A stretch of 64,000 nucleotides of DNA. Source: Lentinula raphanica (lineage: Eukaryota; Basidiomycota; Agaricomycetes; Agaricales; Omphalotaceae). This document shows, one piece after another, positions 1,808-46,537 of the stretch. Where the stretch lies: the NCBI GenBank assembly GCA_027919835.1, contig JANVFP010000010.1, positions 1,423,340 to 1,487,339 of the forward strand, given 5' to 3'. The position numbers and the translations under genes are program-made. The notes beneath the pieces were generated by a model, which saw only the letters and a program-made list of their open reading frames with translations, ran no database searches and was not told the origin of the DNA. Positions within the stretch are counted from its first letter, which is position 1; each line of letters starts with the position of its first letter.

Positions 1808-1822
1808 GTATCCCCCTCTTAG
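1808..1822 (-). promoter_or_regulatory. Gypsy-A polypurine tract
   Basis: Read on the minus strand, the sequence directly before the 3' LTR is CTAAGAGGGGGATAC, an all but pure purine run. That is the expected primer site for plus-strand DNA synthesis in LTR retrotransposons. Confidence 0.75.
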
Positions 1823-2016
1823 GCTTGAGCCCTCGAAAGCCGATGACGGAATCCAGCACGATTATATGATCCTGTTGATCCGATCACATGACTCCGTTGG
1901 TCCGATTCTAGAGCTCTGGAATCGGCCAGCCCGATTAGGAAATGGTTTGATGGTGGTCTTAGAATTTTGACGCGAAAAGACCAGCCCTAAACAATGGTCC
2001 ATGCGCCGATCCAAGG

Positions 2017-2024
2017 TATAAAAG
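2017..2024 (+). promoter_or_regulatory. TATA box of the Gypsy-A opposite-strand gene
   Basis: GGTATAAAAGC lies 47 nt before the ATG at 2064, on the strand opposite to gag-pol. The same GGTATAAAAGC string stands 47 nt before the opposite-strand gene at 15848 in element B. This supports real, separate promoters. The 240 bp between the polypurine tract and this box hold no gene. Confidence 0.7.
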
Positions 2025-2063
2025 CGGAGCAGGATTAGAGGGGACTTCAACAAAATTTCTCTC

Positions 2064-3389: not shown

Positions 3390-3713
3390 TAGTAAAAACT
3401 TGTATATAAATTTTCTTGGTTTTTCTTGAAGTCCAACCTTGTATATAATGAACTTGAATATTGTGAAATGAAGTCCAATGAGAAAGTAATAGTAAAGTAA
3501 ATACAGGGAATGAAAACAACGATAAGTCTGATGGAAATCCGTCGGATTTGACTTAGAAAAATTTAAGAAAAATACAAACGCTCAATTTGCTATCATCGCG
3601 TTTATACTCAATCAGTATAAATACCGAGAGTGTTGAATAAAATACACCGAAGTGTAGTGTTAGTACAACAATGAAAACAGAAGTAAAATCAATGATATAA
3701 AATGAACACATAG
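3390..3713. other. Convergent intergenic stretch in Gypsy-A
   Basis: This AT-rich spacer separates the stop of the opposite-strand gene from the stop of pol, so both genes end here tail to tail. It holds one CCGTCGG dyad (3539-3545) and no coding signal that I can see. Confidence 0.6.
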
Positions 3714-6700: not shown

Positions 6701-7523
6701 TAGGAGGAGATTTAGAGTCCGACTTCGCCGTCGGCGGTGCTGGTTGAGATGCTCTAGCCGCCACTTCGGAGTGTACAGCGTAGAGTAGAAGGGGTTCCAT
6801 ACCAGACATCTTGCAGGCATGATGAAAAACCGTAGCACTGACCAAGGCTATATCGACTCCGGAGTATTCCAGTTTTGAAGCCATCTGAACAACGGAGGGA
6901 TAAGTATACAATGGTTCGAAAGGAAATTTGTCCGAAAGAGGACGAGGTTTCAAATGAGAACGGGAGGTGAAGGCAGATCGACCAGCTCTTGTAGGAAGAG
7001 GATCATCTGGAGGTGACCGAGGGTATCGAGTCGGATCAAGATTCTCTGAGTCCTCCGATCCGTCGGAGGGTATCTCAGAAGAAGACGTCTGTGATAAAAC
7101 TTGATCAGTGGTTCGGATTGTAATTGTTTTCGCTACCCAGTCAATCGACGGATTGCAGCGGGAGAGAAAACTATATCCTAAAACTGCTTTACAAGAAGAA
7201 TCCAAAGGTGTGACATAAAAGTCCAGAGGTAGTTGCTCGTTTGAAGGAAAAACTACTGATAACGAAACGTATTCCGAGATCGGAGTCGGAGAAAGTAAAC
7301 CATCAAATAATCGGAGATTGATCAGAGTAAGGATAGGTTTTGTCGGAATTCTTTTTTGGCGAACAAATGAAGTATCAATAAAACAATCAGTAGAACCGGA
7401 ATCAAGTAAAGAATCAAAAGAGATGGAAATGTAATCAGAAGTAATAGTAGAAGTTTTAGCAGACAGAGGTATGATGAAAGATTTCTCGAGATTAGAAAGA
7501 GCGGACGCGTTGAGAGTTAGCAC
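3714..7523 (-). pseudogene. Gypsy-A pol: protease, RT, RNase H, integrase, chromodomain (one nonsense codon)
   Basis: The frame reads 7523 down to a TAG at 3714, broken once by TGA at 4491-4493. Order: aspartic protease (LLDSGSTDCF, DSG near residues 41-43), RT (MPFGLTNAP and YLDD near 464-467), RNase H (VKTDASDYALA), integrase zinc-binding HHCC region, and the DDE core (SMDFIEQLPDSDGY, TSDRGSEF). The stop falls in the conserved GQTERVNQ block, which reads GQTK-stop-VNQ here, so at least two codons changed. Downstream the frame continues through the integrase C-terminus to a chromodomain (YFVRWSGYEGTDEEFSWV near 3790-3840). Chromodomains in this family direct integration to marked chromatin. 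The frame is open upstream across the gag stop, so gag-pol frameshifting is likely. No ATG sits at the start; 7523 is a GTG. Confidence 0.9.
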
Positions 7524-7588
7524 CTCTGGTAGAGCACGAACCAGGTCAACGCAACTCCTGCTTCGTGCAGAGGGACAGGAGTTGCGGA

Positions 7589-8152
7589 CTATTTTTCCGG
7601 TTCCTCCGACGGAGAGTCCGGAATCTCTTCTTCTTCAGCTACATCCTCGAGAACGCCAGCTCTGCCTTTAGCAGCATTTTCTTTAGACTTCTTTTGGGGA
7701 CAGTCCTTAAGGACATGACCACCTTGTCCGCAGAAAAGACAGAGATTAAACTTCTTACGACATTCCCGTTCCGCAGGAGTGAGCTTGCCGTCGGAGCCGA
7801 GGTTGTCTGTGATCAATTTCTTTGGAAACTTGTTGCCAGAGTTGCCTTTGTTGTTGTTGGAATTACCGAACTTCTTTTGATTGTTAAAGTTCGAACCAGA
7901 GGACGAAGAGGACTGATTAGCACCAGAGTTCTGAGAGGAGTTAAACGGTACCGGTTTCTTGCCATCCTTCTTTCCTTTCTTTGGGTCCGAAGGCTCCGAA
8001 AACCGATGACTTTCCCGCTTCTTCTCTTCTTCTCTGCGCCAATAACGGTTATCCAACCGTAACACTTCTCTCCGATATTCGGAGAGAGTCCGAGGTTCCG
8101 GCATACGAGCAATTTCGTCCTTGAGTCGGGGTGCTAGTCCTTTCTGATACGC
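7589..8152 (-). pseudogene. Gypsy-A gag, C-terminal part with CCHC zinc knuckle
   Basis: The segment encodes the end of the capsid region (KGLAPRLKDEIARMPEP), a Ser/Asn-rich linker and a zinc knuckle CLFCGQGGHVLKDC (CX2CX4HX4C), ending EEPEK at 7589. It is cut at 8149-8152 by an element B solo LTR. Removing that LTR and one copy of its 4-bp duplication joins it in frame with 9852-10109 (LRWA then YQKGLAP). Confidence 0.9.
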
Positions 8153-10109: not shown

Positions 10110-11808
10110 TAACGAGATATAAAGTCGGTTCTTAGTATAATGCCTTATGACAGGTCACTTAGCATGAACACAGAGTACGACTTCACGGATTCGTCAATCA
10201 AATTGTATTTATAGCGAGGTGTGGGGCGTTGTCAGAGATTCCGCACTATCTTATATCTCAAGTCGAACGCAATCTTGTAAGATCTTTTAGATCAGCAATA
10301 CTGGTCAGCAGAATGAAGTGACACGGATATACCAGTCGTAAGATCTGGACTAAGGGGTTTGTTTTGAACGGCTTCCGCTCGGATAAGGGTTTTTAGGCTC
10401 GGAAAGCAACGGGATACCAGACGTTATGGTAGACCAATCGATTCCGCTCCCGGGTGAAGCAGTACTGATCACTATTCTCAGTAAAACCTCGAAGATCACG
10501 CAGATCACCAATCACTACGTGTCAACTTGAACAGAGCCACCAAAACTCTGCCCGTTCACTCGGCACAACCTGAGACCAAGTCCTCTGTATCTCTGGAACG
10601 GAGTCTACCTTCAACTAGCAAGTGACAGACACCAAGTCAAACCACTCAAAAGTCGGGCTTATCGCGATGAAGTAACACACTTAATCTGCAAGGTCCGGTA
10701 CGGCTTAGAAGCCTTTACTCCCATGTATGGATGAAAAGGATTACCAGTTCAGAGAGATCTGGGCGCGAAACTTGTTTCATTTGTGCGGATACAGGTCTTT
10801 AAGTACACTACAAAAAGTCCAATACCCGTATTTGTCCTTGATCTAGTAGATCTAGCTATTTCTACGGACGGAGTCCGATAATATACACTTAAATAGTAAA
10901 ATATGACTGAAACGATACAAACACGCAAGGAAATAGTAAGGAAAACAGAGAAAAAGATGAAACTTGTCCGTATTTCGTCGTACTTTCGCCAGATCTAGAA
11001 GACCAAGCAAGTTCCGACCATGGTCTGTGCGGCCTCCACATGCTAGGGTGCCTAACTCGTCAGAGTGGCTCCTGCCTGTGCTGCTCAAGTGTTTCCGACG
11101 AATTTGCTTCCGCGGAATGGTAGTGGTCTTCCCAGGTTAATGAGATAGACTCGTAACAGTGGTTGATCTCGCGGATCGAGTAGGTCTGGTTCGTAGCTTT
11201 CGATCGGTATGCATATAGCCTGGTGTTCTGGAGCGGACAATGAAGGTAAATGCTTCCGAAGTGTTTTCCGTAGGTTTCCGCGCATTTCCGTGAGTGCTGG
11301 TCAAAGCTGTACATAGCATACGCTATATCCCAGTTTAGAACTTGAACATATGCGTGTTTCCGCTGCGGGTTTCACCCGTACTGCCACGGAAATACTAGAT
11401 CATCATGTTTCCGACGGTTTCCGCTACTTGGCGTAGGGCTTCCGTGTGGTAACTCGTCCGGATAGGCTCTCATCGTGTCTGATCTGCTAGATCAAGTGAA
11501 ATTTCCGTTATCACAGCCAAGTACCAAACTCAGTTGTGCCGATCCGGCAGATCTTGATACTAAGTCGATATTCCCTTGGTGTGCTCGTACCAGTAGTCAG
11601 CATTCTTGAAGGATCCCCGACCAAGGGTGCGAGCAATAGCTCTAAGTGGATATTCATGGCTGGTCCTGCCAAAGGATCTGTATCCTAGCTTATACTGATA
11701 CAAGTTTGACTGCTAGTTCGGGCTCACTACAGTCCTTATTGATACTATGCAACGGTCTAAGTTGATCTTTTTGATCATTGCACGCCTGCGCAGAAAAACC
11801 GCGCAACA
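10110..11808 (-). repeat. B1 3' LTR
   Basis: It is nearly identical to 25749-27447. It contains seven GATC-N5-GATC dyads, at 10281, 10494, 10840, 11165, 11481, 11541 and 11764, and many TTTCCG/CGGAAA hexamers. The TATA for sense transcription (TATAAATA on the minus strand) lies near 10206-10213. Confidence 0.93.
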
Positions 11809-11809
11809 T

Positions 11810-11835
11810 CTCCCCCAAACTAAAGATCTGACCGT
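11810..11835 (-). promoter_or_regulatory. B1 polypurine tract with adjoining hairpin (module mark 1)
   Basis: On the minus strand TTAGTTTGGGGGAG abuts the 3' LTR, as expected for the polypurine tract. On its inner side is a small inverted repeat, TGACC-N6-GGTCA. The same 13-14 bp string plus a hairpin recurs at 15747 and 18039. Confidence 0.75.
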
Positions 11836-12263
11836 CCCCGGTCATCGCTATGGGTAGTGTAGGCTCGTATCCCTTGAAAGGAGTGGTACTGTAGCTGATC
11901 CGACAGATCAATCACTTTTCCGCAATATTCTGACTTGATTATACCCGGTGATCTAACAGATCAAGTTGATCCGTTGATCTTAGCACCCGTACCGACAACT
12001 CCGCTGTCCTCTTGTCGAAAACGCTAAGTCCTCGGTTTGTTATCGGCGCTTAATTTCCGAGTGTGATATCATGACGTAAATCACGCTTCCAATTCTATCA
12101 CATCACATACACACTTCCTCGAAACAACTTCTTTTCAACATTTTACATACTATCCCTATGCCTAGGCCTGGGATTAGTAAGTGCTGACAAAGGTTCAACG
12201 GACTTGGAAAATTTTCTAAGTTCGTTTCTTCCTTCTCCCCATTGTCATTCTATCCTCTACACG
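11836..12263 (+). promoter_or_regulatory. Upstream region of the first opposite-strand gene of B1
   Basis: No gene is seen. It holds GATC-N5-GATC dyads at 11897 and 11950 and a CRE-like TGACGTAA at 12072-12079. No clear TATA box stands before the ATG at 12264. The limits of the promoter are a guess. Confidence 0.35.
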
Positions 12264-15048
12264 ATGTCGTCTTCGAAGGGTTCCACCTCCCAACGCCCTC
12301 GTCCCAAAGCCATTCCTTCATCTTCTGCTTTTCCTGAGCCGCCTCCTCACAAGAAGTTGTCCGTTCGCCCAGTTGACACGCTCAATGTGGACCTTGTGCA
12401 CCGGGTTGCTTTTCACTCTACCCTCCGTGAACTAGATAGGACGCCCGACGACCCCAACGCTTTGTTCCTTCCGGCTTCGGCCGAGGAATGTTCAGTGTTG
12501 GTTAACCGCTTCCGGCAATACCCCAACACCGCTAGCCCTGCTTTCAGCCTTCGAAGGTATACCCACCCCGAGGAAGTCATCTTCCGGGAGTTGACTGAAC
12601 AGGATACGAGTGGCATCCGTCCAGATTCCTTCTACCCTACCCAGTTAACCCAATTCTGCAAAACCTTCTCGACTGGCTCTCCCTCTTCTGCCGAAGGCTA
12701 TCAGCTGTATCAAGCCATGGCTTTCCTCCAGCGACGGTTAGCTCGCATTATTCGCGGCCACCTTGCTAAAACCGAAATCCACCGACGTCTAATCGATCTG
12801 ACTGATCTTCCCAATTTCTCAGCGAGCCTGGTACGTTGGTCAATCCTCCAGTCTTTATTGTTTTTGTCGCCGCTGACTCGCATGAAGGAGTATTACCAGC
12901 TTTTCTGGCACGGTCATAGCAACTGTCCTCTTGCCGCGGTGGTTCTCGTGCTTCTCCTCTGCGAATTCTGTGAGGAACACCTGTCCGCCGATGAATACGC
13001 CGAACGGATTTACAACCCCAAAGTCCGCGATGGGCCTGGGATGAGCATCAAGACACGAGAGCGATTGTTGGTACGTCCCCCCTCGCCAGCTTCGTATCCA
13101 CCTCCTCCTCATGAACTCTCTTCTAATTCGCAGGAGGACATTCCCGATAGTTACGCTATCGAGGACCTGGCGGTACCCCTTCCCTTGGATCCTTCGACTC
13201 GCGAGGGACAGTTGATCTTGACGGTTGCCAGCAAAGGGTCCCGTGTCGACCAGATTTTACACCCGTCTACACGGAAGGCCTTGCTACCGGACACCGGACC
13301 CCGCTTTCCTGCCTAAAGCAGTTTCTAAGCCGGTGGCTCCTTCTGTTTCCAAGCCCCGTCTTCGCCCCCCGTCTCCCGATTTCGACGAACTTCTCTTGGA
13401 GGACGTCGCGCCGATTTCCCCAGCCAAACCTCAACGGGTCTTGAAGAGGCCGGCGAAGTTTCCTGTCTCCTCGTCTGTGGCTGACGGAGACACGGAAGAC
13501 GACCCCGTACCGACTGATGTCTTCAAAAGCCCTGCTGTCCCCGATGTACTAGTGGTTCGTCAGAGCATTGCTCGGGCGGCCAAAACCAAGCCCAAACTAC
13601 CGGATGAGGTCCTCCACCCTCCTGCCTCTGCTGGATCTACTAAGCGCCCCCGGTCTCCTGCTTTCGCTAATCCTGACCCTCTGCTCCCGGAGCCTGTCCC
13701 CAAACGACGACGAGCCCAGAAGACTACTGGGAAATCGCGAGGCGGATCTGTGGTGCCCCCTCCCGAGGATCCTTCGTCCTTGCCAGATGAGGGACCTCTC
13801 TGCATCCAGGAGGGGGAACCTGATTATTTTCACGGCGACGACATAGACGTTTCCGCTCACCCACTCTTCCTCACTAATCCTCACTTCAAGGTTAAAACCC
13901 CCTTTTCTCAGCTAGTTGCTAAGGCTATGGAGACCAATAAACGCGGCTCGAAGCTTCCCTTCCTTCGTCCACCAAAGTGGCATCTTTCTGACGAGATGAG
14001 AGGCTTCGGAGCTTTTGCCACCATTGGCGACACGACGTTTTCTTTGCAAGGATTAAGCCATTTCGGCTACGCCAGTTCTCGCTATCTGTGGACTGCTAAC
14101 AACCGTACTCTTCCTTCCCCCGAATCTCTCTATTCTACCAACAACTGTCTGACCTGCATCAGCCGCGGAGAGGTGTGTGAGAGCAGTGAGAAGCCCAGCG
14201 GGGCCTGTCATCAGTGTAACGGCACCCATCGGTCGTGCCCCAGCTGCTTGTCTCTGGAGGATCATCGGGATCGCTTTCAAGCACTTCACAATCATGTGCA
14301 GGGCTATCCTGACGGTACGTAGTTCGTCCTTCCGTTCTCCGTCTTATCCTTACACACTTCCACAGGTTATGCCGCCTCTCTTGACCAGTATGCCTCGGCG
14401 TTGGACCACATCACTAAGCTCCAGGCCGCCTTTGCTCCTTTATTCCAAGATGCGCAACAGGCCCTGCTCCAAAGCATGCGGACCGTCCGAGACACCGGTT
14501 TCGACTTCAATGTCGTACTCTCGCAATGGGCCATCGATAATCCTCATCTCCCTTTAGATTACGACACCATGACTTGGCTGGCCACCCTTTTCGGCTGGCA
14601 CTCAGCTTGCAACCTTTCCGACCACTTGGCCACGCCCGCGGATCGCGAGAGATTGGAGGAGTTCCTTCGTATCAATCTGCCCAGTCCTGAGGAACTTGAC
14701 ACTACTCAGGCCGCTTCCTCATCCACTCCGTTTCCTTCCGCCGATCCTACTTCTTCTACTGTTCCTGCTTCGCCGGGATCCCCTTGTCAACCTCGTCGTC
14801 GGCCAGCCGCCGCAACACCTAGCAATTTCTTTTCGAAGGACAAGTTTCATACCCCTCCCGCTTCTACTACAGTCGAGGAGGAGATGGAGGTCGACGAAGG
14901 GACGTCTCGGGCCTCCATAGCCCAGGCTTTGGTGACCGAGCACGATGACAGTGACGATGAGGAGGACGTCGATGTGGAGACTGACGACGAGGCGCCCGTT
15001 GAGATTGCCCCACCTGCTTCTTTGAACGCTCCCAAATCTCGCAAGTAG
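12264..15048 (+). pseudogene. B1 opposite-strand gene 1: large Zn2Cys6-like protein of unknown function
   Basis: The start ATG at 12264 (MSSSKGSTSQRP) was preferred over the in-frame ATG at 12204, which lies in pyrimidine-rich leader. A globular N-terminal region is followed by Pro/Lys-rich linkers with likely nuclear signals (PKRRRAQK), then a cysteine cluster CX2CX6CX9CX2CX6C (14146-14237). That spacing is exactly the fungal Zn2Cys6 pattern, but without the usual basic residues. An intron at 14315-14365 joins an acidic C-terminal part that ends at 15048. A second likely in-frame intron is 13074-13136. Between about 13140 and 13316 the frame must shift by one base (run of C near 13303), so this copy is either broken or misassembled. 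Its partner promoter and target sites are discussed in the findings. I do not recognise a named family. Confidence 0.68.
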
Positions 15049-15746
15049 TGTAGCAATGGACTTTTACAATTCCCGGACTTCCGCCTTCATAGATTAGTGA
15101 TCGGACTCTCGTCTTGAGCCAGACTAATTCTACTTCAAAAATTTGTTCATCCTATTGCTGTATCTAGTATTCCTTTTTCTTGGTTTCTAGTAAACTAGTC
15201 CTATCCTCTGTGAATGCCAATGCCCATGTGGGCCTTATCTTGTCTTTTGCCTTGTCTGAACCTTCTTTCAAGCTTCCTAAGTTGAAACTTCAAGACACTT
15301 GAGATATCTCTTAAAATGTCTTCTGAGTTTTCCCTTAAGCCAGCCTCTAAGTTAATGCCTCAAGTTTTCCTTGGCTGTTACCTGATAGAACCCTATAAGT
15401 ATCTCATTGACCTATGTTGTTCTTCTAAGTATCTGCCCTAGACATTCTATGTCCTTTCTGAGTCTTTTGCATTACTTTTCCGCTGTCTTTCCGCCCGAAT
15501 TGATGTCTGATCCGCTAGATCAGACTCATCAAGGTTATTTCTTCGGTTATCAAGTTGGTGGTTGCAGCCTCATATGACATGTTAAATCCATTGGGCTTTT
15601 CAAATTGCAACCTGCGTCGGTTTTAGATCTAAGTCTTTGCGTTGTACGCATGCTTAAGCTGTCAATGAGCACAGGTCTTTTAGATCTCGTAAAATTTTCA
15701 TGAAAATTTCTGAAATTTCGAAAATTCTTGAAACACCGTGTGTCCC
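15049..15746. other. Non-coding spacer between the two opposite-strand genes of B1
   Basis: About 700 bp of T-rich sequence with no open frame of note. It holds a GATC-N5-GATC dyad at 15509-15521 and presumably the 3' untranslated region of gene 1. Confidence 0.55.
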
Positions 15747-15782
15747 CTCCCCCAAACTAAAGCTCAGCAGTCCCCTGCTGAC
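15747..15782 (+). promoter_or_regulatory. Module mark 2: CTCCCCCAAACTAA plus hairpin
   Basis: The sequence CTCCCCCAAACTAA is identical to that beside the 3' LTR. It is followed by TCAGCAG-TCCC-CTGCTGA, a hairpin. It lies about 50 bp before the TATA box of opposite-strand gene 2, so it may act either as a remnant polypurine tract or as a promoter element. Confidence 0.6.
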
Positions 15783-15800
15783 CCGAAGCATTGGAAAAGG

Positions 15801-15808
15801 TATAAAAG
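15801..15808 (+). promoter_or_regulatory. TATA box of B1 opposite-strand gene 2
   Basis: GGTATAAAAGCC stands 47 nt before the ATG at 15848. A GATC-N5-GATC dyad (15814-15826) lies right between the TATA box and the ATG, near the expected transcription start. That placement would suit autoregulation. Confidence 0.7.
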
Positions 15809-15847
15809 CCCTTGATCTAAGAGATCCAACTCCCAACTCAACGAAAA

Positions 15848-17863
15848 ATGGCTCCCAACTTCGAGTACCACAATCTCCCTATCTCGCTTGAAGCTGACTT
15901 TGCCAACTGGTGCGTCGACGCGGAGTACTGGGCTGCTCGTGTTAGCGATGACAAGAGTCTGGCCTGGCAAGGTGCCAAGTACAGTTCCAGCAAGGACAAG
16001 GTCGAGTTCACCACGTCCAACAAAACGATCTTTTTGAACGATGTCCGTTGCGCGTACACTCATCTGGTACGGAAATCGTCTGATCTGCTAGATCTAGCAA
16101 AGTTAACCATTTTCCGTCAGCTCATTCGAGTGTCCCGCGACGCTGCGTGTATGAACAAGGAATATCTGCGGGCGTACGACAATCTCGCGGAGGAATTACT
16201 TTCCGCCGTGAATGCGTACCGCACAATCCGTGACGAGATCCCTAAGCAGTTTCCTAAACTCTCTGAAGAGGGAGGGAAGAATGCCGAGATCGTCAGTTTC
16301 TACATTCAGCTGAACGACCTTCGTCGCAAAAGCTCCGTGAGGACCAAGGCAGACAGGGTTCTCCTGCTGTCAGTACTCGCGGACCTAGTGTTCCACCTGC
16401 TGATCCTGAAGGACCGTCGAAATCCAAGTCGAAAGGCAAGGAAGTTGCGACTGATCCAGCAGATCCAGCAGTTTCCGATGCTGACGCCAAGTTCATGGCG
16501 GAGGTGGTGCGTTTCCGCAACTGTTTACGAAGATTCATTTACTAAGTAAAGGTCCTAGGATGCTGATCTTGCAGAACATGGTCCTTCTCCTCCAAAAGGT
16601 CCTCGAGGCGCACTTGCTAACCATTTACGAGGCCGCGGACTTCCCATGCGAGGCCACTTCCATAGTCCACGCGAGCAACGCTTTGAAATGCAAGAATCAC
16701 TGCGTATGGGTGTGCCTGTTCCGCGGTATGACCCTCCGGTAAGTATGGTACCTTGATATGTTAGATCAGCAGCTAACGGTTTATCCAGCCTCGTCGTGCT
16801 GAACTCGTCATCGATCATATCATTGGTATGGACGAAAGGATCAAGCACGCCAAGGAGGAACGTGAAAAAGGCGAGAAGGGGAAGAAGACCGCGGAAGCGA
16901 CTCCTCCTCCTCCTACCAGGCCCTCTACTCGTTCCAAAAGCAAGAAGAAATCCCCTGACGACGAACCCGCTGCTCTGGCAGATCAGGATGTCTCGGTACA
17001 TGGCTGATCTTGTAGATCAGACAAGTCTATGACTAACCCGTGCCATAGATGGCTGACGAAGTCGAGGATCCTACTCCTGCGAAGGCTAAGACCAAAACCA
17101 AAAAGCGCGACATTGTTGACGACGATGACACTCCGAAGTCTTCCAAGACCAAGAGCAAGCGCAAACGTTCCGAACGCGATGTCGGTCCCGCGGACGGTGA
17201 TGAGACTGAGCGGGCTCTGTCTCCTCAAGCACATAGCACTGTGCACGCTGTAACCGCGATCTCCCAGCCTCGTGCTGTTGGTGAAGATCTGATTAAGAGG
17301 GTGAAGTATTCGTTGGAACTCGCGGATACTAGTGAGTACCACTTCCATTTTCCGCTTTTTCGTACGGACTTCTACGGAAACTCGTTGATCTGCTAGATCA
17401 CGCATTTTCCGTTAGATATTTTTGCTTTGCATAGTCCGGAGTCCTTCCGCAAATCTTCGTGTTACTGATTATTGTCACAGGTACCCCCGACGATACAGAT
17501 CATCAAGATCTTGTGCAACTTCTTCACAACATCGGACTCGCCCACAACCCGGAGGTTGAATTGTACACCGAAGAGCAGTACAATGCTTTCATCAACTTCC
17601 ATACGACCCAACTCTTCGACTGTGTTATGAAAGCTCGTTTCTATGCACACCGTGGGGAGGCTAGTCAACGGATCATCGACAACGCCCGGGCTGCTCGGAA
17701 GGCTGGTGAACCTCTGCCCAAAGACGAGGACACCACCATGACTCCTGCCGACGTTGAAGAGGTGTACGTGTTTTCCGCACCACCGTCGCTGCCACCCGTA
17801 ATTAAAATTGCGCAGACAGACTTAGAGGATCCCGAAATGCAAGGGCCACGCTCCGCACCTTAA
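15848..17863 (+). CDS. B1 opposite-strand gene 2: multi-exon, lysine-rich nuclear-type protein of unknown function
   Basis: Starts MAPNFEYHNLPIS. Clear introns are 16067-16120, one from about 16742 (GTAAGTATGG) to 16789, one from about 16997 to 17048, and one from about 17332 to 17480. Another near 16504-16558 is likely. Each keeps a sensible frame. A frame change near 16250-16400 is not resolved. The N-terminal 200 residues look globular. The middle has RGRGLPMRGH, then KSKGKE, TRSKSKKKS and KTKSKRKRSE basic blocks with Asp runs, typical of nuclear proteins. The C-terminal part (TPDDTDHQDLVQLLHNIG) is globular again and ends at a TAA near 17861. Several introns contain GATC-N5-GATC dyads. 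It faces pol tail to tail. I recognise no domain. Confidence 0.62.
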
Positions 17864-18074
17864 GCAAGTGCTTATCGAGGCTGACCATCTAGATCATCGT
17901 TCATTCTGCCCTGTCGCCTATTTTTATACCTGTACTTTTGTCAAGTCAAGTATCATTGGTAGTTTTTGAGGTAATCCAGTGGCAACTAAATTCCTCGAGT
18001 GATTATTGAGATAGAATAAGTTGAAACATTGCGGAAACTCCCCCAAACTAACTGATCTGTTGGATCAGGCATGT
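17864..18074. other. Convergent spacer with module mark 3
   Basis: Between the stop of opposite-strand gene 2 and the stop of pol lies CTCCCCCAAACTA (18039-18051) followed by CTGATC-N5-GATCAG (18052-18068), which is both hairpin and GATC dyad. This is the third copy of the mark. Confidence 0.6.
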
Positions 18075-21000
18075 TTAGAAAGATTTCCGTCGACCACTTC
18101 GTCGTGGACCATTTGGTAGGGGCGGATTCGCCTCTTCTTCTTGATCTTCGGACTCAGCAGCCTTCAGATCCTCCGGATCAAGCTGTTCAACAGGCGGAAC
18201 CAGTGGTGGTTCAGCGGAATTCGATTGATCATCACCGGAAATGTTTATTCGAGGGACAGTACTGAAAATAAAGTCCTCCACTTCCTCAGGTTCGTCTTCC
18301 TCATCCTGTACCATAGATTCTAACTGCTCGGGCGACAGATCTATCAGATCATGTATATTTTCCGGCAGTTCAATTGGTTCGTAACGAGCATGATGCGGGA
18401 TCACACGGAAAGCACCCACTTTGTCTTTAAGTACAGTGCCATCCATTTCCGCAATGATATATGCGCCTCCTCGGGTCCTCCGGATGACAACCATAGGTCC
18501 ACGATATCGAAGGTACATTTTCCGATCCAAATTCTTCTCGATGGCCGTGTTCCGTACTTGTACTAGGGTTCCCGGTTTGAAATCCCAGTCCTTAATGGTG
18601 TACTTGTACTTTTCCTCGAAAACTCTCGCTTCTCGACGTTTGTTCTTGTCGATCCGTGATTTCATGTTCTCGACGAAGGAACGATGTTTGGAAAGAGCCT
18701 GAGCCCGGAAGCCCAGTAACTCTTCCCGTGATAGTATTCGATTTGGTGGATTGACCAAATATGTAGATTCAACAATATCGAAAGGTAGCAGAGGTTCCGT
18801 ACCGGTAGCTACGAAGTATGGTGAACAGCCTAAACCTCTCCGTGCAGTAATACGATCAGCCCAAAGTATTGGTTTCAAGAAGTAGTACCATTTTGACAGA
18901 TCTCCCGCACACGCTTTCGCAAGTGCTTGTCTCAGATCAAAGTGAGCCCGTTCAATCTTTCCGTTAGCTTGTGAATTGTAAGGCGATATCTGTATTCCAC
19001 GGATCCCGTATTTCTGTTCGAGCCATCTCAACATAAGCTTCATCTGTGGTGCATTGTCCGAGACCACGATTTCCGGACATCCCCATCTACATATGATGTC
19101 TTCAAAGAACCATTCCGCGAGTGATCTCGCATTTTCAACTCTCAGTGCCCTAGCTTCCGACCAACTCGACAATGAATCCCTTCCGTGAACGATATATCTG
19201 CAACCATTACTGGCCGGAGACATAACCATAGTATCGATATGTATCTTTTGGAACAAGGATGGCGTGAAGGTCACCGTTGGAGGGATCCGTACCAAAGACC
19301 TAAGTCGATCTTGGCAGGCTTGACATGTTTTCACATACCACTCCACGTCTTTCTCCAGATCAGGCCACCAAAACCTCTTTTCTAAGAAGTCTTTCGTAGC
19401 ATATGTGCCCTTGTGTCCTAACGCATCATGAGCACTGTGCAATAGATACATTCGTTTTTCCGGTTCAACCACTAAACGCAGTTGATCTGTGGATGGTTTC
19501 CGATGGAACAGTCGACCTTCCGAGTCTATTGAAAAGGACAGTGTTTTCCGGTCCATTTCCGCTCGTTGTCTCTTGTCCAACTTCGCAAATTGCTCAGCAT
19601 TCGGGTCCTTAAGCCATGCTCGGATTTCCGGTAACTGCTGATCTAGACGATTTCCGCCATCCGATCTATGGGATATCGGATATTTGTGATCAGGTCCCCA
19701 CGTAGCATTGTCGGGGATCGCAGTATATTGCAGAAATTGAGAGGTCAAAGGCATTCCCGAGGCCTCTAAACGTTCTTTGAGGAATGCATGCTGGATCTCT
19801 TCCTCCCGGGCAACTTGAAGATCTTCCGCAAACTCATCTTCAATGGTCTCGCAAAAGTATCCTGTCCGGGGATCTATATGATCTTTGAATGATTCAAAGG
19901 GCAATGGATCATCCGCTTCGTCCGCCTTGAAGAACCTAACGTTGTTGGAGTCATCTGCATCTTCTGCTAGATCCTCTTCGGTTTCCTGTCGAGGGGTAGT
20001 CCAACCTCCCGGAGGTCTTCGAGACAAACCATCCGGTCCAAAAGTTGCTCCTTTGACATGGATCAAATCGAAATGGAATTTACGGATATCTTCAATCCAA
20101 CGGTTGATCGTAGCGTTTGGACCACTACTCGGATTTTCAAGCATTCCTTGAATATAGCTAGCATCCGTTTCTACCGTGAGTTTCCGACATCCATAAAGAA
20201 GATAGTGTGTTGCTCGGAGAGCAACCTTCAAACCATAGAGTTCACGCTTAGATTGAGAAAACCGAGCTTCACGTTCATTATACGGGATGGATCCGAAGTA
20301 ATTATAGTAAATCTTCGTCTGATCTACAGGATCAATCTGATAGATGTAAAATCCCATACCCATGTAAGAACTATCCACTGCTAAGTGTGTTTCCCAGTCA
20401 TATACTATGACTCTTAAAGCTGGCGCATTACGGACCCCGTCTTTCAACAGGTCCATGGCTATGACATGCTCATCCTTCCACTCAAACGGAATATTCGCCG
20501 TTAATTTGGTCAAAGGTGAGGCTTTCTTAGCGTAATTGTGAATGAACATCCGGAGCTGACCAACAGTTCCCAGAAAGGCTCGGACCTGTGTCTTAGAAGA
20601 GCACGGAGGCCAAGTCAGAACCGTAGTTGCGATTCTATCTTCCGGTTTCTGTCCTTCGTACGTGCAACGGTGTCCAACCACTACAGTTTCAGCGCAACAC
20701 AGGAATGCTTTAGGTCCCGAGAAGGTTCCGCCGCAATACCGCATCCGCTGAATGATTCGGTTCACATTTTGGAGATGCTCCCAGACAAATCGTCTGATCA
20801 AAGGATTTTCAGGGATAGTTTCGTATCCGCCACCCGGTAATTCATAACGAGTCCCGGGGCCTCTGATAGGAACATCATCGACGTAAGGAATAGTATATTC
20901 CGGAATTTCATCTCGCATCATGTAAGTTACATCGTCATGGAATATCGGAACAGAGTTCGTCCAACCCATAGGCAACTTTACGAGACGGTGTGGTCCGTAC

Positions 21001-22250
21001 GGAGTTTGGAAGGTCATCAGATCTCGCGAACTGACATCGAGTGGTCGTTCATCATAACCCACATAGATATCCAACAAACCACCACAGGCACGACCCGCAA
21101 AATGATGAGCAATATCCGCGGTAGCAGGAGGAATCCCAGAGTGTTGAATGGTTACCTTGTTCAAGGGTTCCAAACTATGTACTAAACGAAGACTCGTTCC
21201 ATCTTTCTTGACCACACAAAACCATTTTGAACGATAGCTCGAGCAAGATGGTTCATAAACTCCAGCATCAATCTTATCCTTGATGATCTTACAAACCTTT
21301 TCGAAGATTCCGGGAGGAATTGGAATATTTCGTTCGACCCAGGGCTCATGAGGTATGACCGGAATTTTCACGGGAGGAAAGAAGTCCTCTCTGAATGTTC
21401 CGCCCTCGGAAGCTTCCCAAGCAAAACCCATTTCCTGCAACTTCATCATATGATGAACTAGCTTCATTTCCTCGTCCGTAAGGAAACCTTCCGCATGGTT
21501 TTTCTCGATGATCTCTTTCCGTTCTTGCGTATACCGAATACCCGGCGTGAATTCCGGAGGATGAGTTGGTAGATCTGGCAGATCAGCCAAAGGATCCCCG
21601 TAAATGTGTCTCCACACACGGAATTCTTCCGGTAGATCAGCCTTGACAGGGCGAACTTTCACCGCTACAGGCTTATATTTTCGAGAACCAAAGACCGAAA
21701 CTGGCTGATCTGGCAAAAACACATCATTATATGCGCATATATGCTGATCGATTGTCTCGTTCTTGAGTTCCCAGAGCTTAACACGATGCATCGCAGCCTC
21801 CAAATCTTGGGTCATTGAAGACAATTCCGCATCTTTTGTTTGATCTACTTGATCTGGTAGATCTTCCGTGTTATCATATGGACGAGTTAACCCGTGTAAG
21901 TCTTTCCACCTAACATCCTTTGTCATGGACTGGTAAAAGGTCTCTTTCAGGTCCTCAACGGTCGGATCAGCTCTAAATCCTTCCTTCCATGGGTTGATCA
22001 CACGATTTTGTTGATGATCTACACCTTTGTTCAGGTATAGTGATATGGTTTCGGCAATTCCGGGGTGGGACTTCTCGATCGTTGGCAGACAGCATTGTAC
22101 ATACACGTCCGCTAATTCTTCATCTGAGAAGGTACCTCGTTTCACCTGATTCGACTCTATAACCACTTCCTCCGCTTGAGCATCCCAGTACCCACTAAGA
22201 GCGATTTCTACCTCTCCCTGGTCGCTACTCAGATCCCAGAGGTTATTCAA
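18075..22250 (-). CDS. B1 pol: reverse transcriptase, RNase H, integrase (intact frame)
   Basis: The frame is open for 1391 codons and has no ATG start; it begins with TTG directly after a slippery AAATTTT, so it is probably made by -1 frameshifting from gag-pro. About residues 1-280 form an N-terminal region rich in Asp, then RT with SLRLVHSLEPLNK, LPMGWTNSVPIF and YVDD (456-459). RNase H follows (LAVDSSYMGMGFY). The integrase (roughly 940-1180) has an HHCC zinc site (HDALGHKGTYATK, CQAC) and catalytic D, D, E in HIDTMVM, VSDNAPQ and GKIERAH. No chromodomain is seen; the C-terminus is RRSGRRKSF. The family is a Gypsy lineage distinct from Gypsy-A. Dipeptide repeats such as DLPDLP and DQVDQT are encoded by GATC-N5-GATC dyads. 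Confidence 0.92.
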   Translation of the reverse strand: MNNLWDLSSDQGEVEIALSGYWDAQAEEVVIESNQVKRGTFSDEELADVYVQCCLPTIEKSHPGIAETISLYLNKGVDHQQNRVINPWKEGFRADPTVEDLKETFYQSMTKDVRWKDLHGLTRPYDNTEDLPDQVDQTKDAELSSMTQDLEAAMHRVKLWELKNETIDQHICAYNDVFLPDQPVSVFGSRKYKPVAVKVRPVKADLPEEFRVWRHIYGDPLADLPDLPTHPPEFTPGIRYTQERKEIIEKNHAEGFLTDEEMKLVHHMMKLQEMGFAWEASEGGTFREDFFPPVKIPVIPHEPWVERNIPIPPGIFEKVCKIIKDKIDAGVYEPSCSSYRSKWFCVVKKDGTSLRLVHSLEPLNKVTIQHSGIPPATADIAHHFAGRACGGLLDIYVGYDERPLDVSSRDLMTFQTPYGPHRLVKLPMGWTNSVPIFHDDVTYMMRDEIPEYTIPYVDDVPIRGPGTRYELPGGGYETIPENPLIRRFVWEHLQNVNRIIQRMRYCGGTFSGPKAFLCCAETVVVGHRCTYEGQKPEDRIATTVLTWPPCSSKTQVRAFLGTVGQLRMFIHNYAKKASPLTKLTANIPFEWKDEHVIAMDLLKDGVRNAPALRVIVYDWETHLAVDSSYMGMGFYIYQIDPVDQTKIYYNYFGSIPYNEREARFSQSKRELYGLKVALRATHYLLYGCRKLTVETDASYIQGMLENPSSGPNATINRWIEDIRKFHFDLIHVKGATFGPDGLSRRPPGGWTTPRQETEEDLAEDADDSNNVRFFKADEADDPLPFESFKDHIDPRTGYFCETIEDEFAEDLQVAREEEIQHAFLKERLEASGMPLTSQFLQYTAIPDNATWGPDHKYPISHRSDGGNRLDQQLPEIRAWLKDPNAEQFAKLDKRQRAEMDRKTLSFSIDSEGRLFHRKPSTDQLRLVVEPEKRMYLLHSAHDALGHKGTYATKDFLEKRFWWPDLEKDVEWYVKTCQACQDRLRSLVRIPPTVTFTPSLFQKIHIDTMVMSPASNGCRYIVHGRDSLSSWSEARALRVENARSLAEWFFEDIICRWGCPEIVVSDNAPQMKLMLRWLEQKYGIRGIQISPYNSQANGKIERAHFDLRQALAKACAGDLSKWYYFLKPILWADRITARRGLGCSPYFVATGTEPLLPFDIVESTYLVNPPNRILSREELLGFRAQALSKHRSFVENMKSRIDKNKRREARVFEEKYKYTIKDWDFKPGTLVQVRNTAIEKNLDRKMYLRYRGPMVVIRRTRGGAYIIAEMDGTVLKDKVGAFRVIPHHARYEPIELPENIHDLIDLSPEQLESMVQDEEDEPEEVEDFIFSTVPRINISGDDQSNSAEPPLVPPVEQLDPEDLKAAESEDQEEEANPPLPNGPRRSGRRKSF

Positions 22251-23725
22251 AAATTTGGTTGCGGAACTTTCTCTGCCTCCTCGTGAGTGTCTTCCCGTCT
22301 TGATTCGGGTTGCAACTGTTGAGTTGGCTGTGATACTTTTCGTTCCACCACTTTTCTTGGTGCTCTCGGTCCATGTCCTTTCGGATATGTACCCATGGTA
22401 TACCGTTTTCCAGTATTCGGATCCGTAATCGTAAGTTCCTGATCACCCGATCCAAAAGTCTGAATGACACTCTCAGTTAACACATCAAACGGACGTCCCA
22501 ACAGTATTTCGAAGGGAGCCTTTTCTTGAACATGTAACTGTAAATACACTGTGACTGGTCCAAATCGAAAGGGCACATTTCGGGCTAAACCTTTGGTCCG
22601 CGCTATCCCGCCATGTACATTTTGCATCTGTATGGTGATTCCGGGATCCCAACCTAGACCTAAGCCTAACGCCACGCTCATATCGATTGCGACTATCTGT
22701 GATCCTGAGTCCAGGAGGTTCTCTACTTCGAGATCTTCCTGATCATTCACAACAGGCCACACTGCACGGAGACCATTGCCGATGGTAGCAACTATGGTCA
22801 TATCTCGTCGTTCATCATTCTCGTCTACATCACTCAAGAATGATTCTACTGGATCTACTTGAACAAAGGCTCCTGCTTTCATCCCATCCCGATCCTCAGA
22901 TAATCTTTCAAAAGCCCAAGCTTCGGGTAATGCTAGATCATCCACGGAAATGACTTGTTCGTCTTCGGAATCATCATTTGAAAGGGTTTCCGTAGCTAGA
23001 TCTTGTTGATCAGCCACGTTCAGCAGCATTTTCTTTTGATCTTGCGGAAGTACTCGCTTGTTCCGTATCTTTCGTGCTACGATCTGCCTGATCTTCCCCG
23101 AAAGCTGTAAAGCTTCGGAAGAAGTCAATTCAATCGTCTTTCGCACTATCCGGTCAGCAAGCTCTTCCTCTAGACCAGGCGTGAACAGTTCATTCTGCAG
23201 CCTGTATTTTGGTGCCTTCGAAGATCCCTTAGATTCAGGTATCTTTTCCGGCTTTGGTTGATTTCGAGGGTGAGGTGTAACTTCTCTGGGCTGAACATCA
23301 TCAAATGGCCTTCTCGGATTTTCCGTACGAGGAGGTGACGGATCGCGGAATCATACTTGCTTCGATTTCCGTTGATCTGCCTGATCAGGCTCGGGATGCG
23401 AGCCTAAAGCACTCTCATCCGTTAAATCGTCAATGGTCACTGACTGTATCCTTTCCAAAGCAGCTTCCCTCAGTGATTGAGAAGGATCGGGGTCTGATCC
23501 AGCAGATCTGTCATGATTAGGCGTAGAATTGTCCGGATTGGACTTTGGTTTTTCAGATGTTTTGTTTTTACTAGGGTTATTTCGATCTATGGGTATATGC
23601 ACCCCGTCAAAGCGTTTATTCTTGACGGCAGGTATTGCTTTTGGTGAGTTAGGCTTTGGGGCACCTTCATGAGTTGTTGCCTGTTGCTGAGACCGTGTCC
23701 TTGGCCCAGAGGTCAACTCAATCAT
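22247..23725 (-). pseudogene. B1 protease region (one nonsense codon)
   Basis: It corresponds to the intact 492-codon frame in B2 (46538-48016). The C-terminal part carries the retroviral-type aspartic protease: NLLDSGSQIVAIDMS (DSG) and FEILLGRPFDV. The N-terminal part is Ser/Asp-rich linker. A TGA at 23351-23353 (minus strand) replaces the CGA present in B2, a single CpG transition, and splits the frame into 23725-23351 and 23146-22247. Unless read through, this copy cannot make protease or pol. The ATG lies just after the gag stop, in a different frame. Confidence 0.85.
22248..22256 (-). promoter_or_regulatory. Probable -1 ribosomal frameshift site (B1)
   Basis: On the minus strand the protease frame ends CCA-AAT-TTT-TGA. 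The heptamer A-AAT-TTT has the XXXYYYZ form. A slip of one base back avoids the stop and enters pol (TTG-AAT-AAC). The same bases are kept in B2 at 48007-48013. Confidence 0.72.
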
Positions 23726-23733
23726 TGGATTCC

Positions 23734-25304
23734 TCAGTTTCCCGACTCGTTCATGTACACCGTAGCCACACCATTGCTAGATCTCCCTTGCACCATCTCC
23801 GCCAGATTGGCAATGACCATCCAAGCTGGGGATCCGGCCAACTGTTCCGAGTAATCCTCATTGTCCGGGATCATCTCGTTCATCATCGTCGAAACCTCGG
23901 GCCATCCTTTGGCCTGACCATATTTCATGATCTTTTGGTATCTACTCTCACTTCCGAAGTTGTTCGGTAACGGAGACCCATCCTTCAACTTAAGACGTTT
24001 TGGATCTTGCGGATCACGCATAATCCAACCTTTCCCTAAAAGTTCCAAGAACATTGGACAACTTTGCATCATATGGTTCAGTTCCCGACAAAGGAAACAC
24101 AACATCTCAGACCTTTGACCTTGTGCATTATTCGGATTCGTGTTAATGATTCCGCGGGGAGGCCCACTGTTTCCGGGATTACCACTACCAGAAGTGACAG
24201 CATGGGGCTGCACCCGTTGCGCAGGTTGAACATTTCCTGTCTTGATGTTAGCCAGCATTTGAGCCAACGTCTCAAGTTCCTCTTTGTAGGTAGCCTTAAG
24301 TGCTCCCAAATCTTTGACCAACACACTGTACTGGTCCCTGTTTGCAGCTAGTGCTCTTTCCGTTTCCTCGGAAGCCTCTCGTTTCACTTCTACGGGCTTA
24401 GCTGGAGACCGGAAGAAATGCGAGAGATCCGGTACTTCTTCTTTGATCACCGGAGGACCACCAATCGGAACGTATACACCTCCTCTTGAGTGGGTTTCCG
24501 CATTGAAGACCACACCATCCCGACTTGTTACCGTCCGGTACAACGATTTCAAGGGTGGGTGCCTTGCTACGGCCTCTGCTGCTTCCTTGTACTCTATGAA
24601 CAGATATGGATCATCGACCCGACGTTTCTCTACGCGGAAAGCAGGTACCTGCTGTTGAACCTTACGATTCACAGCTTTCCGTAACTCGTCATCGAATGCT
24701 GACAGGAAAAGAGACACCAGTTCCGTGTTTCCTATTGCCGGAGGCGGTTTCAACAGCTTATTGGCTTCTACCTCCATCAACAGACAATATCCGAGCAACC
24801 TATCTCCGTCCCGGACACCCAAAGGAGCATAGTTCTGTACGATCTGCAAGAGCGTATTCTTCGAACCCATTGGTCTCCCTAGAGATGCTGGGAATCTTTC
24901 ACACAGGGAACGCAGAAAACAGTCCGCGTCTTCCCTTCCCTCCTGCGCGCCGGGAAGATGCTCGAGAGCCTGCTTGGTCTGAAGGGTCATCCAAGAAAAG
25001 ATCTTTTGCATCTTCACCTTCTCGGAGGTAACTTCCGTAGCCTGGAACGTGTTCAAACAGAACCTCACCCACTCGGGGATCATGCTCGGATTGGCCAAGT
25101 CCAGGATCATAGCAGTTTTGTGTGTAAGCGGAAACTTGGTATTGTTATACTCTGCTTGTTCCGCAGGAGTTAATTCAGGTGGACCAAGCATCCTTATGAT
25201 GTCGAGTTGGTCCTCCGGTCGTTTTTGTTGGGCAGCCGGGTTTGCTGGTGCGTTAGCATTCGCTCCCGCGGCTCCCTGATCATTTCCGTTATGTACTTCG
25301 GACA
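23734..25304 (-). CDS. B1 gag
   Basis: First ATG in frame is at 25304 (MSEVHNGNDQGAAG). The frame is open further upstream to about 25655, but without ATG. The capsid part (DIIRMLGPPELTPAEQ through RVEKRRVDDPYLFIEYKEA) is alpha-helical in character. A zinc knuckle CFLCRELNHMMQSC (CX2CX4HX4C, Gly missing) follows near residue 415, and the protein ends YMNESGN. It packages element RNA in virus-like particles. B2 has the same protein with a few substitutions. Confidence 0.86.
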
Positions 25305-25728
25305 TATTGTTGGGCAAAAACAGTCGTATCAAATCAAATGGTTCGGGTTGTAATGTAGGATCTGAACTAGATTGCGGATCTGGTCCAACAGTAGCTGCCT
25401 TCTGTCTACCGTTTCCTGGCACTACGTTAGATCTCTTCGTTACTGGTTGTTCCGAAGATGGTCTAGGAGCTCTCCCGTTATCTGGATTGCTAGTACTCGC
25501 TCTTCCGAGGTTTCTCGGATCGTAAACAGGTACAGAGGGTTTCTTTGTTGCGCGCTTTCGCTGATCTGAAGCTTGTATCGCTGGATCAAAGAAATCTGCT
25601 GAGCCCGCGTTCTTCGAAGTCCGAGTAGCTCTTGGAGCTATTTTTAATGATCAAATAAATTCGATCAAAGGCAGTAGTTTTGAGAAATCAAGAAGATCTC
25701 TCGAGTTCGACCAAAATATAGATTCCAC
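25305..25728 (-). other. Leader of element B between PBS and gag ATG
   Basis: About 420 bp. The gag frame is open for the inner 350 bp (for example KRAAKKPSVPVYDPRN) but has no ATG. The same holds in B2. Either a spliced or non-ATG start extends gag, or the open frame is left over. Confidence 0.5.
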
Positions 25729-25746
25729 CCCTCGCGGTGGGCTCCA
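25729..25746 (-). promoter_or_regulatory. B1 primer binding site
   Basis: Two bases inside the 5' LTR, the minus strand reads TGGAGCCCACCGCGAGGG. It begins with TGG, the complement of a tRNA 3' CCA end. The matching tRNA is not identified here. B2 has the same site at 44517-44534. Confidence 0.65.
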
Positions 25747-25748
25747 GA

Positions 25749-27447
25749 TAATGAGATATAAAGTCGGTTCTTAGTATAATGCCTTATGACAGGTCACTTA
25801 GCACGAACACAGAGTACGACTTCACGGATTCGTCAATCAAATTGTATTTATAGCGAGGTGTGGGGCGTTGTCAGAGATTCCGCACTATCTTATATCTCAA
25901 GTCGAACGCAGTCTTGTAAGATCTTTTAGATCAGCAATACTGGTCAGCAGAATGAAGTGACACGGATATACCAGTCGTAAGATCTGGACTAAGGGGTTTG
26001 TTTTGAACGGCTTCCGCTCGGATAAGGGTTTTTAGGCTCGGAAAGCAACGGGATACCAGACGTTATGGTAGACCAATCGATTCCGCTCCTGGGTGAAGCA
26101 GTACTGATCACTATTCTCAGTAAAACCTCGAAGATCACGCAGATCACCAATCACTACGTGTCAACTTGAACAGAGCCACCAAAACTCTGCCCGTTCACTC
26201 GGCACAACCTGAGACCAAGTCCTCTGTATCTCTGGAACGGAGTCTACCTTCAACTAGCAAGTGACAGACACCAAGTCAAACCACTCAAAAGTCGGGCTTA
26301 TCGCGATGAAGTAACACACTTAATCTGCAAGGTCCGGTACGGCTTAGAAGCCTTTACTCCCATGTATGGATGAAAAGGATTACCAGTTCAGAGAGATCTG
26401 GGCGCGAAACTTGTTTCATTTGTGCGGATACAGGTCTTTAAGTACACTACAAAAAGTCCAATACCCGTATTTGTCCTTGATCTAGTAGATCTAGCTATTT
26501 CTACGGACGGAGTCCGATAATATACACTTAAATAGTAAAATATGACTGAAACGATACAAACACGCAAGGAAATAGTAAGGAAAACAGAGAAAAAGATGAA
26601 ACTTGTCCGTATTTCGTCGTACTTTCGCCAGATCTAGAAGACCAAGCAAGTTCCGACCATGGTCTGTGCGGCCTCCACATGCTAGGGTGCCTAACTCGTC
26701 AGAGTGGCTCCTGCCTGTGCTGCTCAAGTGTTTCCGACGAATTTGCTTCCGCGGAATGGTAGTGGTCTTCCCAGGTTAATGAGATAGACTCGTAACAGTG
26801 GTTGATCTCGCAGATCGAGTAGGTCTGGTTCGTAGCTTTCGATCGGTATGCATATAGCCTGGTGTTCTGGAGCAGACAATGAAGGTAAATGCTTCCGAAG
26901 TGTTTTCCGTAGGTTTCCGCGCATTTCCGTGAGTGCTGGTCAAAGCTGTACATAGCATACGCTATATCCCAGTTTAGAACTTGAACATATGCGTGTTTCC
27001 GCTGCGGGTTTCACCCGTACTGCCACGGAAATACTAGATCATCATGTTTCCGACGGTTTCCGCTACTTGGCGTAGGGCTTCCGTGTGGTAACTCGTCCGG
27101 ATAGGCTCTCATCGTGTCTGATCTGCTAGATCAAGTGAAATTTCCGTTATCACAGCCAAGTACCAAACTCAGTTGTGCCGATCCGGCAGATCTTGATACT
27201 AAGTCGATATTCCCTTGGTGTGCTCGTACCAGTAGTCAGCATTCTTGAAGGATCCCCGACCAAGGGTGCGAGCAATAGCTCTAAGTGGATATTCATGGCT
27301 GGTCCTGCCAAAGGATCTGTATCCTAGCTTATACTGATACAAGTTTGACTGCTAGTTCGGGCTCACTACAGTCCTTATTGATACTATGCAACGGTCTAAG
27401 TTGATCTTTTTGATCATTGCACGCCTGCGCAGAAAAACCGCGCAACA
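25749..27447 (-). repeat. B1 5' LTR
   Basis: 1699 bp, the pair of 10110-11808. Differences seen include TAATGAG/TAACGAG, GCACGAAC/GCATGAAC, CTCCTGGG/CTCCCGGG, CGCAGATC/CGCGGATC and GAGCAGAC/GAGCGGAC, all CpG transitions. All seven GATC-N5-GATC dyads are kept. A sense TATA lies near 25845-25852. Confidence 0.93.
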
Positions 27448-31329: not shown

Positions 31330-31436
31330 GGAAACAGATTATATGCGTGGACGAATACGGCAGAGGTTCGATATGCAAAGGCGATTACGGAAAAAGTTCG
31401 ATACAGAAATGAAATGGCGATGTTCGCGCTTCTGAC

Positions 31437-44514: not shown

Positions 44515-44516
44515 TC

Positions 44517-44534
44517 TGGAGCCCACCGCGAGGG
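44517..44534 (+). promoter_or_regulatory. B2 primer binding site
   Basis: TGGAGCCCACCGCGAGGG, two bases after the LTR, identical to the B1 site. Its TGG start fits a tRNA 3' end. Confidence 0.65.
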
Positions 44535-46529: not shown

Positions 46530-46537
46530 GGAATCCA

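Follow-up and report, generated by a model that had tools for sequence, protein, structure and literature searches.

Element B1 and its paired GATC words

The stretch analysed here (the window) comprises 64,000 nucleotides of Lentinula raphanica DNA (contig JANVFP010000010.1, positions 1,423,340 to 1,487,339, forward strand) and contains a long terminal repeat (LTR) retrotransposon, B1, inserted into a second element, Gypsy-A. B1 was assigned to the Ty3/gypsy type from its LTRs, a CCGG target duplication, and Pfam matches to protease, RNase H and integrase H2C2 in order; no Pfam match to RVT_1 or rve was found in its pol, no Pfam gag match above cut-off was found in the gag-like open reading frame (ORF), and gag was placed by position. 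B1 is a young element; its LTRs (10110–11808 and 25749–27447) differ in 6 of 1699 columns. Two antisense plus-strand genes, ORF-I and ORF-II, separate pol from the 3' LTR. The element is studded with the word GATC-N5-GATC (the dyad; k = 5, where k is the number of bases between the two GATC), which very probably is a tag selected at the DNA level.

Exact dyads in B1 numbered 40, and each other spacing from k = 0 to 30 gave 0–4. One LTR plus the internal region held 33 dyads; a third-order Markov control, which preserves the raised GATC frequency, gave a mean of about 1.9 per 15.6 kb, and none of 300 simulations exceeded the maximum of 6. Counts for the whole genome: k = 5, 3214; k = 0–4 together, 4985 (997 each); k = 6–20 together, 16399 (1093 each). 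At 30 loci around ORF-II of B copies (window copy included) 242 pairs were counted at k = 5, and the sole other peak up to k = 20 was that at k = 14 (48), which period-9 runs of GATC would give; such a run, GATC-N5-GATC-N5-GATC-N5-GATC, contains the counterpart of the dyad 15509 upstream of ORF-II at 23 of the 29 other loci. The fixed N5 spacing claimed in the original prediction was thus confirmed in B1 and genome-wide. All dyads listed there (23 internal, seven per LTR) were present, those at 11959, 12795 and 14260 had been overlooked, and the single dyad of Gypsy-A (1868) was found as described; the chance figure of 0.3 was an underestimate, since the word GATC is itself overrepresented, with 194 copies in 17.3 kb.

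Among the larger parts of B, dyad density was highest in the LTRs (4.1 per kb). Single GATC occurred at about 12–15 per kb across the parts of B and of C, a sister family in which one short stretch had 10.9. In the ORF-I region of both its density was down to 4–5 per kb, similar to that of other DNA; the dyads 12795 and 14260, within this otherwise tag-poor region, may be due to chance. The apparent introns of ORF-II hold the dyads 16082, 17006 and 17387 (exon limits derived from reading frames and database protein models).

Table 1: Coordinates of the features discussed (window numbering unless a contig is named; dyads by first base).
Feature	Position	Strand	Remarks
Element B1, Ty3/gypsy-type LTR retrotransposon	10110..27447	- (gag-pol strand)	LTRs; 4-bp CCGG flanking direct repeat
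Left LTR	10110..11808		7 dyads: 10281, 10494, 10840, 11165, 11481, 11541, 11764; 18 CGGAA/TTCCG
Noncoding dyads beside left LTR	11897..11971		11897, 11950, 11959; last two overlap, period 9
ORF-I, antisense, several exons	12264..15048	+	Hypervariable tag-poor region ~12300–15490; start 12264 from first reading
Dyad upstream of ORF-II	15509..15521
ORF-II, antisense, several exons	15821..17863	+	Dyads 16082, 16453, 17006, 17387, 17498; 15814 just upstream
Apparent-intron dyad	17387..17399		CGGAA on one side, TTCCG on the other, each 7 bases from edge
pol ORF	18075..22442	-	Pfam RNase H, integrase H2C2; dyads 18167, 18338, 19871, 20321, 21572, 21842, 21851
Protease ORF	22247..23350	-	Dyads 22732, 22999, 23081
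gag-like ORF	23734..25650	-	Dyad 24003; 23374 and 23496 just 3' of ORF
Right LTR	25749..27447		7 counterpart dyads: 25920, 26133, 26479, 26804, 27120, 27180, 27403
B2, second B copy, inverted, interrupted further on	42813..48703	+	14 dyads between 42849 and 48409
Gypsy-A 3' part, chromodomain integrase	1220..8152	-	19 CCG-N1-CGG sites
Gypsy-A antisense gene	2682..3389	+	C-x2-C-x8-C-x10-C-x2-C-x6-C at 2880–2981; basic linker, predicted coiled coil
Family C copy	contig C1, 393958–411131		pol protein ~77% identical to B

Coding bias and form of the site

The coding sequence of B is biased toward dyads beyond the needs of the protein. Synonymous shuffles (1000, protein and codon usage held fixed) gave: pol, 7 dyads observed vs a mean of 2.6–2.8 (P 0.002; highest of the shuffles also 7); protease, 3 vs 0.8 (highest also 3); gag, 1 vs 0.5 (not significant; highest 1). 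The earlier statement that the dyads of gag, protease and pol lie in different frames proved mostly wrong: 10 of the 11, including all seven of pol, start on a codon boundary and encode D-x-x-D, the 9-base period being equal to three codons, and one is in another frame. Codon context was consistent with this bias. Asp codons followed by C were GAT in 57/65 cases in B and 62/71 in C (otherwise 60/92 and 79/111); no significant bias of this kind was observed in five further coding sets (two very small). At Asp positions shared by families B and C, both codons were GAT in 33/40 cases before C vs 38/78 otherwise (P = 0.0003). Synonymous sites of B and C pol are saturated (dS about 2.2). GATC of the B LTRs was kept in C at 9 of 20 sites vs 23.5% of other 4-mers (P = 0.03; reverse comparison 9/23, P = 0.07).

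The form of the site was read on one strand; flank tables counting both strands were excluded, as symmetry is built into them. The inner five bases follow T-R-S-Y-A (T 23/33, A 18/33), and their marginal composition is symmetric. Paired N5 positions showed no covariation (13 seen vs 14.8 expected; 10 vs 10.4), and non-GATC 4-bp inverted repeats no enrichment at k = 5 (68 vs 53–73 at the other spacings from 3 to 12); the two negatives together favour a protein reading two identical DNA half-sites over an RNA stem.

Tags and antisense genes of related families

Family C showed no N5 peak (5 N5 dyads over the whole copy); its word is AGATCT, of which 58 copies lie in the 15.5 kb made up of one LTR and the internal region, in excess over synonymous shuffles (gag 6 vs 1.0; protease 5 vs 0.9; pol 14 vs 3.5), no significant excess of AGATCT being observed in B. 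The flanks SAAY and RTTS (at least 3 of 4 letters, one strand) were both present at 22 of the 58 sites, one at 11 and neither at 25 (P 2e-6); AGATCT of C is thus often the core of a whole symmetric 14-base site, SAAY-AGATCT-RTTS. The pattern AAYAGATCTRTT matched the genome 247 times and its reversed form 4 times; most of the 50 matches listed trace to a single site pair, spaced by 52 bases as it is in the C LTRs and multiplied along with copy number. Since the matches are mostly copies of two LTR sites, they indicate family restriction and not independent gains. Inside or beside a family C copy (contig C1, 1739000–1748999; L069) two arrays of 61-bp units containing ACTTAACA were found at 488–922 and 1961–2230 of that locus, apparently in opposite orientation; they perhaps belong to another transposon with its own word.

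Gypsy-A carries CCG-N1-CGG at 19 places within 7.15 kb, where each other spacing as far as 12 occurs 0–7 times; its pol holds 8 vs 1.1 in the shuffles (maximum 5 of 1000), and the sites occur in all three frames. This tag was picked after looking, and the fixed pattern was then applied to a related copy on contig C2 (accessory protein 56% identical), where 11 sites were found in 8.1 kb vs 0.12 expected; the limits of that copy were set from the sites themselves, and it is the only related one among the 50 matches listed on contigs C1–C3. Genome-wide the fixed pattern showed no excess (725 vs 708). No comparable spaced word was found in two control stretches, L072 and L073, which surround gypsy pol matches of greater distance; the longest open frame of L072 is not its pol (19% identity to B), and columns obtained from it were disregarded.

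A second word, CGGAA, is abundant in B: LTR and pol each hold about 10 per kb, with 44 in pol vs 16.5 in the shuffles. CGGAA pointing at a dyad from 7–9 bases away (11481, 16082, 17387 and others) was seen 8 times vs 0.76 expected, an arrangement chosen after looking; more broadly, CGGAA was concentrated around dyads, with 22 copies pointing toward and 29 pointing away where 15.4 of either kind were expected. This suggests composite sites of CGGAA and a GATC dyad. The single words TCGGA/TCCGA were somewhat above the shuffles in B gag and pol, partly by overlap with CGGAA.

The whole window was searched for a six-cysteine spacing in open frames of more than 60 amino acids; three matches were obtained, namely B1 ORF-I, the antisense gene of Gypsy-A, and a simple repeat. 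Family C also has an antisense six-cysteine gene, so that all three tagged families carry one between pol and the 3' LTR; the module was not found in the two control stretches. The typical Zn2Cys6 spacing is C-x2-C-x6-C-x5/12-C-x2-C-x6/8-C; ORF-I of B (C-x2-C-x6-C-x9-C-x2-C-x6-C within 14146–14247) and of C fits it, and in Gypsy-A eight residues (x8) separate cysteines two and three. One relative of the Gypsy-A protein is labelled by UniRef as having a Zn(2)-C6 fungal-type domain; a PDB sequence search with the Gypsy-A protein gave no match up to E = 10. No Pfam match was found in ORF-I or ORF-II, and no match to the TRP28 domain (PF04195) in ORF-I, ORF-II or the Gypsy-A protein. Public protein matches numbered 14 for ORF-I, 8 for ORF-II and 13 for the Gypsy-A protein; where named, all were from L. 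raphanica, in a search that needs shared exact words.

The two B genes differ in their variation. ORF-II is 95–98% conserved in most B copies. In the ORF-I region alignable bases are far less alike: their identity drops at 12250 from 96% to about 63–66% and is back at 95% by 15500 (58 loci, some of which share a copy). Nine copies showed 49–74% ORF-I protein identity to B1; their synonymous divergence is saturated (dS 2.1–2.9 in four copies, not computable in five), the ratio of nonsynonymous to synonymous divergence (dN/dS) being about 0.1 in the four. All nine carry dyads in the same element (2–8 per locus). From these alignments B looks like a uniform backbone (about 96% identical) carrying old ORF-I alleles that were apparently swapped between young copies.

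Other features of the window were as follows. A solo B LTR without adjoining internal region lies inside Gypsy-A (8153–9854; flanks ACGC). The pol of B2 contains a DNA-transposon-like insert of 13.6 kb (49533–63091) with inverted ends CACTTCAG...CTGAAGTG and the flanking repeat GCGGCGG; 51 TGGG-N3-CCCA palindromes (other spacings from 0 to 7: 0–2) are arranged in 62–63 bp arrays close to its two ends, and the six-cysteine module was not found in it. Inside the right Gypsy-A LTR a 213-bp tandem duplication is present (28629–29055; 2 copies, 98% match). Beside Gypsy-A lies a copia-type gag and pre-integrase ORF (29146–31338), with three CCG-N1-CGG after 30000.

Interpretation and known systems

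The reading favoured here, with moderate confidence, is that the dyads serve as binding sites, scattered along double-stranded DNA and symmetric in form, for a sequence-specific protein that acts as a dimer and is probably encoded by the element, and that these sites mark the DNA of the family as self. Such a protein would bind two GATC half-sites along the whole element. That the reader is the element's own product, made from the antisense genes that lie ahead of the 3' LTR, is somewhat more likely than not; ORF-II is slightly preferred as the GATC reader, being as uniform among copies as the dyads, and ORF-I, with its zinc-cluster-like module, may read CGGAA. Binding over the whole body might keep the chromatin of the element open or control its transcription, as VANC does for VANDAL; relief of silencing, as opposed to other regulation, is a possible but rather doubtful purpose. 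It is further proposed, tentatively, that each gypsy family of this mushroom may possess its own symmetric word, spread over noncoding and coding parts alike, and its own antisense reader, the two diverging together as a private control, with ORF-I of B as an exchangeable cassette of anciently diverged alleles; the reading of paired CGG by Zn2Cys6 dimers fits CCG-N1-CGG of Gypsy-A.

A number of results weigh against this reading. Conservation among copies, proposed beforehand as a test, gave a weak result: dyad halves were lost in 25 of 432 cells (5.8%) vs 6.9% for all non-CpG 4-mers among 29 B copies (duplicate L039 removed), GATC ranked 45th of 164 4-mers, and single GATC was better kept than the dyads (7/353 lost). 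Column variation (30 rows, window copy twice; L068 left out as too short) gave a likewise weak signal. The test has low power, as recent copies mostly show neutral decay. Ten coding dyads of B were aligned with C and only one of them is whole there, so that the N5 arrangement belongs to B and is not deeply conserved. Among 30 ORF-I loci two had no dyad and five had one or two, which nested insertions or foreign flanks may explain; the two without a dyad in 3.8–4.0 kb are L019, which matches B within ORF-I only, and L036, which may contain another insert. The Ile test (ATC after G) was not significant in B (P 0.13; C, P 0.018). As to the readers, no Pfam Zn_clus match above cut-off was obtained (Gypsy-A 12.8 bits, cut-off 21; ORF-I no match), and AlphaFold gave ORF-I a mean predicted local distance difference test (pLDDT) of 42, with a confident coiled coil and uninformative cysteine modules in the Gypsy-A protein. 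ORF-I, whose protein differs by 26–51% while the dyads are retained, fits poorly as the protein that reads them, and its region is tag-poor in both B and C. The CGGAA excess is not seen in family C, although C has a six-cysteine gene. The control stretches were two only, with 3' ends possibly incomplete.

Binding by a host transcription, chromatin or silencing factor, the elements gaining sites through transcription from the LTR or being read by the host, is unlikely, although it deserves more weight than the other alternatives. The high dyad density of the LTRs fits it, as does the resemblance of the CGG-type sites to those of host zinc-cluster factors, and an origin of any binder in the element is itself inferred. 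The sites, however, fill pol, protease and introns far from promoters; three families with three different tags would require several host factors; sites aiding silencing would be selected against; and each of the three tagged families has an antisense six-cysteine gene of its own. A functionless origin by codon-pair or D-x-x-D bias, mutation bias or small duplications would agree with the in-frame position of 10 of the 11 gag, protease and pol dyads and with the 9-base tandem run upstream of ORF-II; it is made improbable by the excess over protein-preserving shuffles, the noncoding sites and the different tags of the families, and general codon-context bias is disfavoured in particular by its absence from the five comparison coding sets.

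About equally improbable are RNA hairpins of GAUC-N5-GAUC serving packaging, dimerisation or export. GATC is self-complementary, a 4-bp stem with a 5-base loop is possible, and genomic RNA spans most of the sites; against this stand the lack of a k = 5 peak in other inverted repeats, the lack of covariation in N5, and the tags of C and Gypsy-A, which with 0 and 1 base between their arms are unable to form such hairpins. The recognition tag of the original prediction, proposed for DNA or RNA, is accordingly retained at the DNA level, where the spacing peak, the shuffle excess in pol and protease, the codon context with its controls and the tags of other families agree with it, and its RNA variant is disfavoured. 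That the dyads are integration targets of the element itself, a safe haven for self-insertion, is very improbable: the 5-base centre of the dyad would match a common length of target duplications, but B1 lies between 4-bp CCGG repeats without a dyad, and none was present at either flank of the solo LTR at 8153 or at the single outer flank examined for B2, so that this explanation is disfavoured on three insertions.

The nearest known systems to a self-marking tag with an element-encoded reader are found in plants. In Arabidopsis, as described in PMC5735166, the VANC protein of VANDAL elements binds a family-specific short motif and relieves silencing; the motifs (e.g., YAGTATTAY) are mainly noncoding, in the same orientation, and multiplied by tandem repeats. 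B and C likewise show a short motif dense in one family and different in a related one. In B, however, the motif is neither mainly noncoding nor tandem (11 dyads in the gag, protease and pol ORFs; most sites single; one 9-base run), the tags are symmetric, the carriers are LTR retrotransposons, and binding and relief of silencing are hypothetical. Retand and other plant gypsy elements are described as having antisense ORFs between pol and the 3' LTR, with a predicted DNA-binding TRP28 in Retand (PMC11963269, PMC7264820), and Retand has family-specific tandem repeats in its antisense-gene region (PMC11963269). The accessory ORF is similarly placed here; the modules are Zn2Cys6-like or of unknown fold, the host is a fungus, and the tag is dispersed over most of the element, not arrayed in one region. 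Zn2Cys6 proteins, according to PMC5559640, typically bind paired CGG triplets (inverted, direct or everted) as coiled-coil homodimers; the Gypsy-A protein resembles regulators of the Leu3 type, which have everted sites, in its cysteine spacing (nearly), basic linker and coiled coil, and CCG-N1-CGG is an everted CGG pair. The differences are that the modules fall below the Pfam Zn_clus cut-off, that GATC is not a CGG site, and that the gene lies inside a retrotransposon. The present case is like a blend of VANC/VANDAL and Retand, and by the tests made a member of neither. Among the titles and abstracts listed in literature searches, apart from the papers cited here, no account matching it was found for GATC retrotransposon tags, dispersed palindromic motifs, antisense zinc-cluster genes of Agaricomycetes or L. 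raphanica elements.

The results bear on two open questions, how a transposon tells its own DNA apart and what role antisense genes play in LTR elements. As the predicted target sites are numerous, vary from one sister family to another and have candidate reader genes linked to them, binding, specificity and co-divergence are directly testable. If true, the proposed reading would mean that sequence-specific control by a protein of the element itself, known from plant DNA transposons, also operates in LTR elements of fungi, and that a DNA code is overlaid on their coding sequence.

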